The notes beneath the pieces were generated by a model, which was not told where the DNA came from, made no database searches, and was given only the letters and a program-made list of their open reading frames with translations. This document shows positions 11,554-15,287 of a DNA stretch of 64,000 nucleotides, one piece after another. Source of the stretch: Cytauxzoon felis. Taxonomy: Eukaryota; Apicomplexa; Aconoidasida; Piroplasmida; Theileriidae. The translations under genes were made by a program, and so were the position numbers. The DNA lies in contig JAIQCW010000204.1 of assembly GCA_020283715.1 (NCBI GenBank), positions 1 through 64,000 on the forward strand, given 5' to 3'. Numbering within the stretch: position 1 is the first letter of the stretch; every line of letters begins with the position of its first letter.

Positions 11554-12360
11554 TGTTTAATTAGCAAATAATATGTTAATGATTTAAATTAACGTCTGGC
11601 TGCAAGCGTATGCCTCCATACAACATTATTAACATGAAAAATATGTGCATAATTACCTTTAATATATTACGTTTCCACATTAAAGGTGAAATCCATACAA
11701 ATGTCTGAGTTTTGTTCAAATTTCATACATTCAAAGACATACGACGCGGCAAGTAATTACTCAGTGTATTTTAAGATTAAAACAAATATGAGATATAAAT
11801 TAATACCGTATCTAATGAAATGTACATGTTTGGCTAAATAAAATGGGTATACAACCAAAGAAATTGGAGTTGTCCATCATGATAAAATAAGCATCAATAT
11901 GCTTGTATATATGTGTATATAACTCGAATTTCCAAAGCGAAAAATCAAAATCAATCTGGTTCCCTGGACTGCTTATCAAAAATAATTTTAAATGGCCGAT
12001 ATTAAATGCTTAGAATGCATTAGATGGGGAAATATTATTCTGCGCATATTCTACAATAAATATTTTCATTATTAAATCCTTGTATTTCTGTAGTTTTAGT
12101 GAAAATATACTTAATTATGTCTCGGTTAAGTCTCACGATATCGATATATAAATCTCGACGTCATGAATAAATTCTTTCCAGTAGTAAGCCAATACTATTT
12201 CGGTACACTAGTAAATTAAAATTAATATTATATATGAATTTTGATATCGTGAATAGGACGTTTGAAATAGGATGATGTTAAATGATTACCGGTACATCAA
12301 ATAACTGTATGGATTCCATTGACAGGTAAAATAAAAAACGGAATCTAGTATGTTACCTAA
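11554..12360. other. Intergenic between MATH/USP7-like gene and U5 inverted repeat
   Basis: About 800 bp, AT-rich, with no credible coding frame. It should hold the promoter of the minus-strand MATH/USP7-like gene. A TTACCGGTAC motif near 12289 resembles part of the palindrome upstream of U5. No tRNA or other RNA recognised. Confidence 0.5.
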
Positions 12361-12456
12361 AATTATTTACATGGGTGAATTGAATACAATTAGGAATATG
12401 TCATATTTAATTATTTGTTTAGCCATTCTATTTAATTATTGTCTATTATTGGGTAT

Positions 12457-12478
12457 TACCGGTCCACCCGGTATATAA
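12457..12478 (+). promoter_or_regulatory. Palindrome plus TATA-like box upstream of left U5
   Basis: TACCGG, five bases, then CCGGTA, running directly into TATATAA. It lies about 40-60 bp before the inferred 5' end of U5 snRNA, where a proximal sequence element of snRNA promoters would sit. The same element is mirrored at 13106-13127 for the right copy. Promoter function is inferred from position only. Confidence 0.4.
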
Positions 12479-12514
12479 TTCTTATTATACTAGGTAAGAT
12501 CTTGTGCGGTTTGA

Positions 12515-12636
12515 GGGTCATTAACGCAGTAGTCGCCGCATCACGCATCAATCTTTCGCCTTTTACTAAAGATTGCCGTGCGGCGTCTGCACTTAATGCT
12601 ATTTTTCTAATTTTTGTGGCGCTCCGGCGCCTACAA
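12515..12636 (+). ncRNA. U5 spliceosomal snRNA, left copy
   Basis: U5 is the snRNA that holds exon ends in the spliceosome. The invariant loop I stem is present: AATCTTT, loop CGCCTTTTACT, AAAGATT (12550-12574). It sits on a longer stem closed by GCCGCA/TGCGGC and by ATTAA-GCAG/CTGC-TTAAT. An Sm site AATTTTTG follows at 12609-12616, then a GC-rich 3' hairpin GGCGCTCCGGCGCC (12618-12631). This is the full U5 layout. End points are estimated from the helices. The short frames on both strands here are by-products of the RNA. Confidence 0.92.
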
Positions 12637-12947
12637 TTCTGTATTTTAAATTCAATATTATCACTTGTAAACATAACATTCATAATTATAAGTAATAAAA
12701 ATTAAATGTAATATATTTAACTAATATAAATCTCAGCTTGACACCATGTTTGCCATTTTATCTATTACCCTCAGCCCTTATTGTATGCAGGGGCGTATTC
12801 ACATTGAGATTCCAGCGGTACCAATGAGATAAATAAAATAAGAATGCTATTAAGTAGAAGTAGTAACATATATTACATTTAATTTTTATTACTTATAATT
12901 ATGAATGTTATGTTTACAAGTGATAATATTGAATTTAAAATACAGAA

Positions 12948-13069
12948 TTGTAGGCGCCGGAGCGCCACAAAAATTAGAAAAATAGCATTAAGTGCAGACG
13001 CCGCACGGCAATCTTTAGTAAAAGGCGAAAGATTGATGCGTGATGCGGCGACTACTGCGTTAATGACCC
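12948..13069 (-). ncRNA. U5 spliceosomal snRNA, right copy
   Basis: Identical to the left copy and in the opposite orientation, so the two RNAs are transcribed toward each other across the 151-bp spacer. It has the same loop I, Sm site and 3' hairpin. With no differing base between the copies, both are equally likely to be functional. Read-through from one would be antisense to the other. Confidence 0.92.
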
Positions 13070-13304
13070 TCAAACCGCACAAGATCTTACCTAGTATAAT
13101 AAGAATTATATACCGGGTGGACCGGTAATACCCAATAATAGACAATAATTAAATAGAATGGCTAAACAAATAATTAAATATGACATATTCCTAATTGTAT
13201 TCAATTCACCCATGTAAATAATTAATTTTCATTATTTGTTGCTAGATACTATTTCTTCAGTAATGGTCATCTCACTATATTTCTGATTTATTTATTATGT
13301 GCTG

Positions 13305-15287
13305 ATGAAATCACTTAATCCTGAAATAATTAACCTAACATGTTCATTCATCAAAGATTACGAGGATGATGACGGAAAAAACGTAAAGATTCCACCAGAA
13401 ATAGTTACTATTATTAACAATGTGAATTTGGACAAAGCTCTGGAAACGGCGAGATTATTTTTATTCCTCGGTGGCACCTCTCATATCATTATGACAGATA
13501 ATGGAAATAAAAATGTCACTGTTGTGCCTTTTAGTGATTACCACTATGAGCTTAGCTGTTCACTCAGCCTGGTTAGTCACGCCATGCTTCCATTACCATA
13601 CCCACTTAGATTATTCAATGAATGTAGAGCATGCACTCCAATATATACTGCATTAGTTGATGAATTGGGTACTAACTTGAATCTTCTAAATGAAATATTC
13701 TTACCAATAGCCGATGTGGACGAATTTGTATCTGGACTGTTGGAAATAAGTAATAAAGTATATGGCCCAGGTGGAAGAGATATAAACGATGATATACGGC
13801 CATATATAACTAGAGCGGACTTCATGATTGATTCTCGTGAAATGCATAATATCAGTAGCAGTGAAAATGCTACCGTAAATGTATTTTGTAAGCAATGTCA
13901 CTACAATATGTGTTTATGTGACATGTCTATGAATGTGTCTAATGACTTGGATAAAGGATCAAATATGAATGAAATATCATATAATAATTCTGTATCTCAT
14001 GCAAAATTGGTAGAAATAAATGCAGTGGCGGCATGTATGTCTCATTTGTCGGGGATAATATCTAAAACACACGATAAAATATTGTCGAAACACATTGTTA
14101 ATTCATTAGGCTCCAACGAAATACATATAGAAAGTCTAAAGTCTGAAAAAAATATGATGACTATGAATAATACTCCATTAGATTCTCAAATTGACCTACT
14201 ATACAAATCGCATTCACTATATGTTGAAAAATATGGTACCATATCAGGAGAAAACAGGCTATGTATAATATATATCGTCAGAGATGGTATATTAAACTTC
14301 TTTGAAAATTTTGCTACTAGTAATGGCGTATATGAGAGATATGGTATACACGTTAAACTGCTAACAAACATACAGCTATGTAATCTTATAAGAGATAAGA
14401 AATTATTCATTGCTAAGAATTGGGAGTATGATGGTACATCATCCATAACTTTTTCAGATGTATCATATTATAATTCTGAGCAGAGTCCTGGGCATCTAAT
14501 AGTCACGTCTGACCCTTACAATTGTAATGATAGAATCTCTATTCGTGATTTTAATGAAGTGAGCGTAGTTTACTTCAGGTCTTTTTATGATCCCATTCAA
14601 ATGGATTCTGATAAAGATACATGGAAACTGAGATTACTTCTTGAATATTCCAATGCTGGTAAAATACCTACTGTACCTGTACAATTGGCTACCTCAAAAA
14701 GGGGGCAAATGTACTGGAGCAATCCAAAGCATGCTGAAGAATTATTAAAAACCTATAACACCAGGATTAAGGTATTTTTTACTAAATTATAATTCATTAC
14801 ACTACAGTCTAATGAACACCCTATCAAATGTATAAAACCATTAGTTGATGCATATGTTCTTCAAGTTGACCCATCTCTAGATTGTAATATGGAAGTCGTG
14901 AAAGATGCTATCAATTACCCTTCGAATTACGTTCTAAAATCTCAAAGAGAAGGAGGTTTTGGTAATTTCTATTCCAATGATATAAGCAAGGTACTAACCG
15001 AAAACCTCAACAACAAACATCATTTATCAAAATATGTACTAATGAAGCGAATTAGACCTCCTAAACAACCTGCTGTGTTAATAACTCACTCGAATTACGA
15101 ATCAATTGCGATTGCCGCATGTGATTCGGTCACCGAACTTGGGATATATGGATGTACCCTGTACGACGGAGCGAACTGTAAATTCAACAAAACTAACGGA
15201 TACTTGGCAAGAACAAAATCATCTTATAAGACTGGAGGTGGAGTATGTGCAGGTTATGCATCTGTTAACTCACTATTATTTTATTAA
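13305..15287 (+). CDS. GSS: Glutathione synthetase (eukaryotic ATP-grasp type)
   Basis: Joins gamma-glutamylcysteine and glycine with ATP to make glutathione, the second step of the pathway. Two exons, 13305-14771 and 14808-15287, with a 36-nt intron in phase 0; about 648 aa, longer than the usual 470-500 because of an insert with a CKQCHYNMCLC stretch near residue 190. I start at the ATG at 13305; the frame extends upstream only through a GTG. Family marks: VSVVYFRSFYDP and WKLRLLLEYSNAGKIPTV before the junction, then the ATP-binding YVLKSQREGGFGNF, ITELGIYG-type segment (VTELGIYG) and the C-terminal Gly-rich loop TGGGVCAGYASVNSLL. It lies just right of the U5 repeat and shows no sign of transfer. 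Confidence 0.92.

Follow-up and report, generated by a model that had tools for sequence, protein, structure and literature searches.

Facing U5 snRNA genes in a perfect inverted repeat of Cytauxzoon felis and a candidate promoter element common to several of its snRNA genes

A stretch of 64,000 nucleotides from Cytauxzoon felis contig JAIQCW010000204.1 (referred to here as the window; 31% GC) contains two U5 snRNA genes that point at each other from the two arms of an inverted repeat. The questions raised by this locus are whether the pair is real, how it came about, and whether both copies supply U5 RNA. The answer favored here, which we consider probable, is an inverted duplication of the sole U5 locus, with arms that are identical through recency or conversion and with both copies making the same U5. 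The features of the locus are listed in Table 1.

Table 1. Features of the U5 inverted repeat and its flanking ORFs (positions within the window).
Feature	Positions	Strand	Remarks
Left neighbor, MATH-domain ORF, 1878 aa	5917..11553	-	Points away from the repeat
Left arm, inverted repeat	12361..12716	+	356/356 positions pair with the right arm
GGG block 5' of candidate element, copy a	12451..12453	+	GG at the same two columns in five gene types
Candidate promoter element CACCCG-N20-TAGGTA, copy a	12465..12496	+	Exact match, one of six in the genome
U5 snRNA copy a (Rfam limits)	12523..12632	+	RF00020, 80.9 bits, model 1-117
Loop I, CGCCTTTTACTA, copy a	12557..12568	+	Mirror at 13016-13027 in copy b
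Sm site AATTTTTG, copy a	12609..12616	+	Mirror at 12968-12975 in copy b
3' hairpin, UCCG loop, copy a	12618..12631	+	Mirror at 12953-12966 in copy b
Spacer, 151 bp, asymmetrical	12717..12867	.	Between the arm ends
Right arm, inverted repeat	12868..13223	-	356/356 positions pair with the left arm
U5 snRNA copy b (Rfam limits)	12952..13061	-	RF00020, 80.9 bits, model 1-117
Candidate promoter element, copy b	13088..13119	-	Exact match, one of six in the genome
GGG block, copy b	13131..13133	-	Mirror of copy a
Right neighbor, glutathione synthetase ORF, 497 aa	13299..14792	+	GTG at 13299, in-frame ATG at 13305; points away

The two arms are reverse complements of each other at every one of their 356 positions. 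Pairing stops abruptly on both sides: the first inner mismatch is 12717/12867, and outer pairing ends directly at 12360/13224. The initial annotation had described arms that are identical base for base over 356 bp and RNAs that converge across a 151-bp spacer, and both parts of that description agree with the sequence. Repeat finding (seed 14) recovers the same arm pair, stretched to 363 nt at 99%, and no further inverted pair of at least 60 nt in the 64-kb window. Nine inverted pairs of at least 60 nt were found in 47,483 further bases of the same genome (five stretches). None is perfect (71-95%); the longest, with 95% identity, measures 128 nt, and the partners are separated by 1.7-8.4 kb. 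Together, the window and the five stretches come to 111,483 bases, or 1.3% of the assembly.

Both U5 copies are full-length matches to RF00020, each scoring well above the gathering score of 40 bits. The loop I sequence (GCCUUUUAC) sits on a stem, and the Sm site is followed by the 3' hairpin GGCGCTCCGGCGCC. All three parts are intact in both copies, as had been proposed for each arm. The folding of the U5 RNA has a z-score of -4.78, and none of 200 shuffles was as good. Compared with the U5 spliceosomal RNA of RF00020, the RNA itself has no visible difference; it is the paired inverted layout that differs. A pattern scan for the U5 core returned, as expected, zero matches in prokaryotic genome contigs and zero in viral contigs.

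The assembly comprises 8,623,106 bases in 181 contigs. Among the best candidates scored, U5 has two matches, both at the inverted repeat, while U1, U2, U4, and U6 have one match each; these counts are lower bounds because only the best candidates were scored. A search with the arm as the query gave two places in the assembly, and both are again at the inverted repeat. By this measure, U5 alone of the five major spliceosomal snRNAs has two matches in a compact genome. The genes for U4, U6, and U2 are grouped in less than 30 kb of one 87-kb contig (C24:51885-81531). At least 145 matches to the FAINT domain (PF04385), a family expanded in Theileria and related parasites, occur in the assembly; taken with the genome size and the GC content of the window, this probably marks the genome as that of a Theileria/Cytauxzoon-type piroplasm. 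Short words, among them CTCCCGGAGATCGTGGC and CCACTTGAGGT, recur at dispersed sites in both orientations (loci L041, L042, and C142 locus L014).

The upstream region of the glutathione synthetase ORF extends into the right arm of the repeat. An importin-like ORF elsewhere in the window has five homologues by protein search. The neighbors bear on whether the genome really has two copies. Assemblers are known to have difficulty with perfect inverted repeats such as this 356-bp one, and both the copy number and the orientation of the spacer rest on the assembly. A single U5 locus that was folded back or misjoined could give the same picture in a genome with one copy. A simple fold-back would be expected to copy the outer flank too, so the differing flanks make it unlikely: the outer flanks share no homology and lead to a MATH-domain ORF on one side and to glutathione synthetase on the other. 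The asymmetry of the 151-bp spacer argues in the same direction. An assembly artefact is considered quite improbable.

With a duplication as the preferred reading, an inverted copy of the only U5 locus would have been made, taking along the candidate promoter element plus 84 bp of flanking sequence on the 3' side. The identity of the arms would then come either from a recent duplication or from arm-to-arm gene conversion. Near-identical arms lie between unlike flanks, a pattern expected of a gene-converted inverted repeat; conversion is not distinguished by it because a recent duplication gives the same arm identity. Old arms that have been partly homogenized might show decayed homology past their ends, and both sides of the arms were compared with shuffled sequence on this rationale. 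The outer flanks show no older homology, since 648, 583, and 1000 of 1000 shuffles reached the anchored score under three scorings. In smaller shuffle sets, the outer score was reached by 41 of 60 (anchored), 88 of 300 (local), and 30 of 100 (600-bp local). The inner sides beyond the arms give a weak hint of homology, with 26, 35, and 53 of 1000 shuffles reaching the anchored score under the three scorings. The smaller sets for the inner sides gave 1 of 60 (anchored) and 79 of 300 (unanchored local), the latter not significant. The flank results are not decisive between recent duplication and gene conversion.

The pair could also be an old feature that the lineage actively maintains, with arms homogenized by conversion, with a spacer that flips and with both copies kept since U5 dosage matters for splicing. 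This is thought unlikely. Through most of its life cycle the parasite has a haploid genome. Transcription of both copies, a dosage benefit, the mode of copying, and conversion are all matters that we infer for this locus. The U5 pair offers a modest model in which snRNA dosage and arm-to-arm conversion could be examined.

A two-box element, CACCCG-N20-TRGGTA, is found upstream of U1, U2, U4, and both U5 copies (U5a and U5b). The distance from the end of the element to the Rfam start is 21 nt for U1, 22 nt for U2, 24 nt for U4, and 26 nt for each U5 copy. Six sites in the genome match the pattern exactly, where 0.27 would be expected from the base composition of the window, and five of the six precede these five genes. 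Further upstream, three or four consecutive G are present in each of the gene types from U1 to U5, with common GG columns 11 bases before CACCCG. The U3 snoRNA (RF01848, 96.5 bits) has an element with one mismatch 25 nt before it, and TAGGTA also occurs there four bases earlier. Together with the G run, the shared element is a sequence-specific promoter candidate for small RNAs of the Pol II type in this lineage.

The initial annotation had named an upstream palindrome as part of each U5 unit. A palindrome is indeed present at U5 (ACCGG-TCCAC-CCGGT), but it is not the conserved feature. As a functional element it was rejected: in U1, U2, U3, and U4, CACCCG and the G run are retained but the left half, ACCGG, is missing. 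The palindrome is made up of the conserved promoter blocks plus a coincidence confined to U5, and it is better read as a candidate promoter.

Specificity was evaluated with a promoter profile of 54 columns, with each gene left out in turn, over 222,330 positions (the window and the five stretches). The held-out genes scored 30.8 (U1), 30.8 (U2), -0.6 (U3), 31.4 (U4), and 24.6 (U5). If the four highest scores per run are assigned to the genuine U5a, U5b, U2, and U4 sites, as assumed here, the top background for the same runs was 5.1, -2.9, -4.7, -5.1, and 4.1, respectively. Each held-out promoter from U1 to U5 is above all background among the 222,330 positions, U3 narrowly so. U6 scored -59 at a single register picked by eye, a score that 63,546 of the 222,330 positions reach. 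U6 has CACTCCCCTATATTATC near its start, which resembles the U1 block CACACCCGGTATATTATC, and has no TRGGTA box. The upstream block of U6 may represent a variant of the promoter used by Pol III.

The sixth exact match of the pattern is at C142:71894-71925. Its profile score is 10.0, against a background maximum of -1.7 in its own run; the match may be due to chance because the background of other runs reached 5.1 in 1.3% of the genome. No Rfam match was found at this locus at E ≤ 0.5. The second box at this locus overlaps ATGGGTA, and by eye the sequence resembles the start of a short gene with an intron.

When mismatches are allowed, the pattern matches 20 places in the genome with zero or one mismatch (6 and 14, respectively). 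Allowing up to two mismatches gave match counts of 157 and 160, compared with 156 and 138 for a backward control, so that the loose pattern hardly exceeds the control. Thirty pattern loci were taken, of which 15 were run against Rfam, and five of the other 15 are known snRNAs. The Rfam run on the 15 loci returned U3, plus SNORD41 under its gathering score. U3 had not previously been searched for and was reached through the one-mismatch pattern, which could help in finding more small RNAs.

These blocks also bear on whether both U5 copies are active. Neither copy looks like a pseudogene because both carry all of the promoter blocks. One copy might be active with the other a silent recent duplicate, and the sequence of the mature RNA cannot tell identical copies apart. 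Such an arrangement is considered improbable, given that the full RNA and the exact promoter element are present, unchanged, in both copies. According to the preferred reading, an inverted duplication with two working copies, convergent transcription from one type of snRNA promoter would give identical U5 RNA from both.

The layout itself could be regulatory, through read-through antisense U5 or a long hairpin, or through a DNA cruciform. The inverted geometry permits this. The Rfam 3' ends of U5a and U5b are 319 bp apart, with the 151-bp spacer between the arms, so antisense U5 would require read-through of that length. In principle, the DNA could form a cruciform and antisense U5 could be made; a regulatory role for the layout is considered very improbable.

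The 3' ends of the snRNAs have features of their own. U1, U4, and U5 end in a hairpin with a UNCG tetraloop, and U2 has one directly after its end; AAC, TAAC, or TAC follows. The 16-mer GCCCTCCGGGGCTAAC at the 3' hairpin is common to U2 and U4. U3 and U6 have no UNCG 3' hairpin. Hairpins of this kind with a stem of at least 4 number 35 in 222,966 strand-bases, the snRNA hairpins included. The UNCG hairpin is possibly a signal for 3'-end processing.

The candidate promoter element can be compared with the PSE/USE-type promoters of animals and plants, in which Pol II snRNA genes share an element located about 50-70 nt upstream of the start. The element described here is likewise common to Pol II-type snRNA genes and keeps a fixed distance upstream of them. 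It differs from the PSE/USE type in its sequence, and U6 is without the second box here.

Small-RNA genes in inverted repeats have a human counterpart, as a U3 gene cluster was reportedly described by Gao in 1997 within a complex inverted repeat. The human case differs from the present one in the RNA and in being a cluster. For C. elegans, PMC1803023 describes inverted repeats in which paralogous genes point in opposite directions, with near-identical arms and a short spacer. One of these, F44E5.4, has 2207-bp arms and a 126-bp spacer at 99.7% identity. Gene conversion is proposed there as one possible means of upkeep, and the authors lean to selection on structure. The present repeat differs from the C. 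elegans pairs in that snRNA genes lie within short arms. In Euglena gracilis, the available passages of PMC2784804 describe convergent U3-U5 pairs with spacers of 255 and 160 bp in two clones. Those genes also face each other across a short spacer; they differ in being two different RNAs in multi-copy linkages, and no inverted repeat is described in the passages.

Among apicomplexans and their relatives, one U5 entry appears among the conserved elements of Alveolata in the passages of PMC5028923, and a Toxoplasma U1 is used in PMC4474610, whose text does not contain the term "snRNA gene". Neither the arrangement nor the promoter was described in the passages of the literature searched, with most subscription journals lying outside the search. 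Set against these systems, the U5 pair appears to be a genuine, if slightly unusual, duplication of a gene and not a new kind of system. Paralogous inverted pairs are already known, and the shared snRNA promoter, as a candidate, is the more useful by-product.
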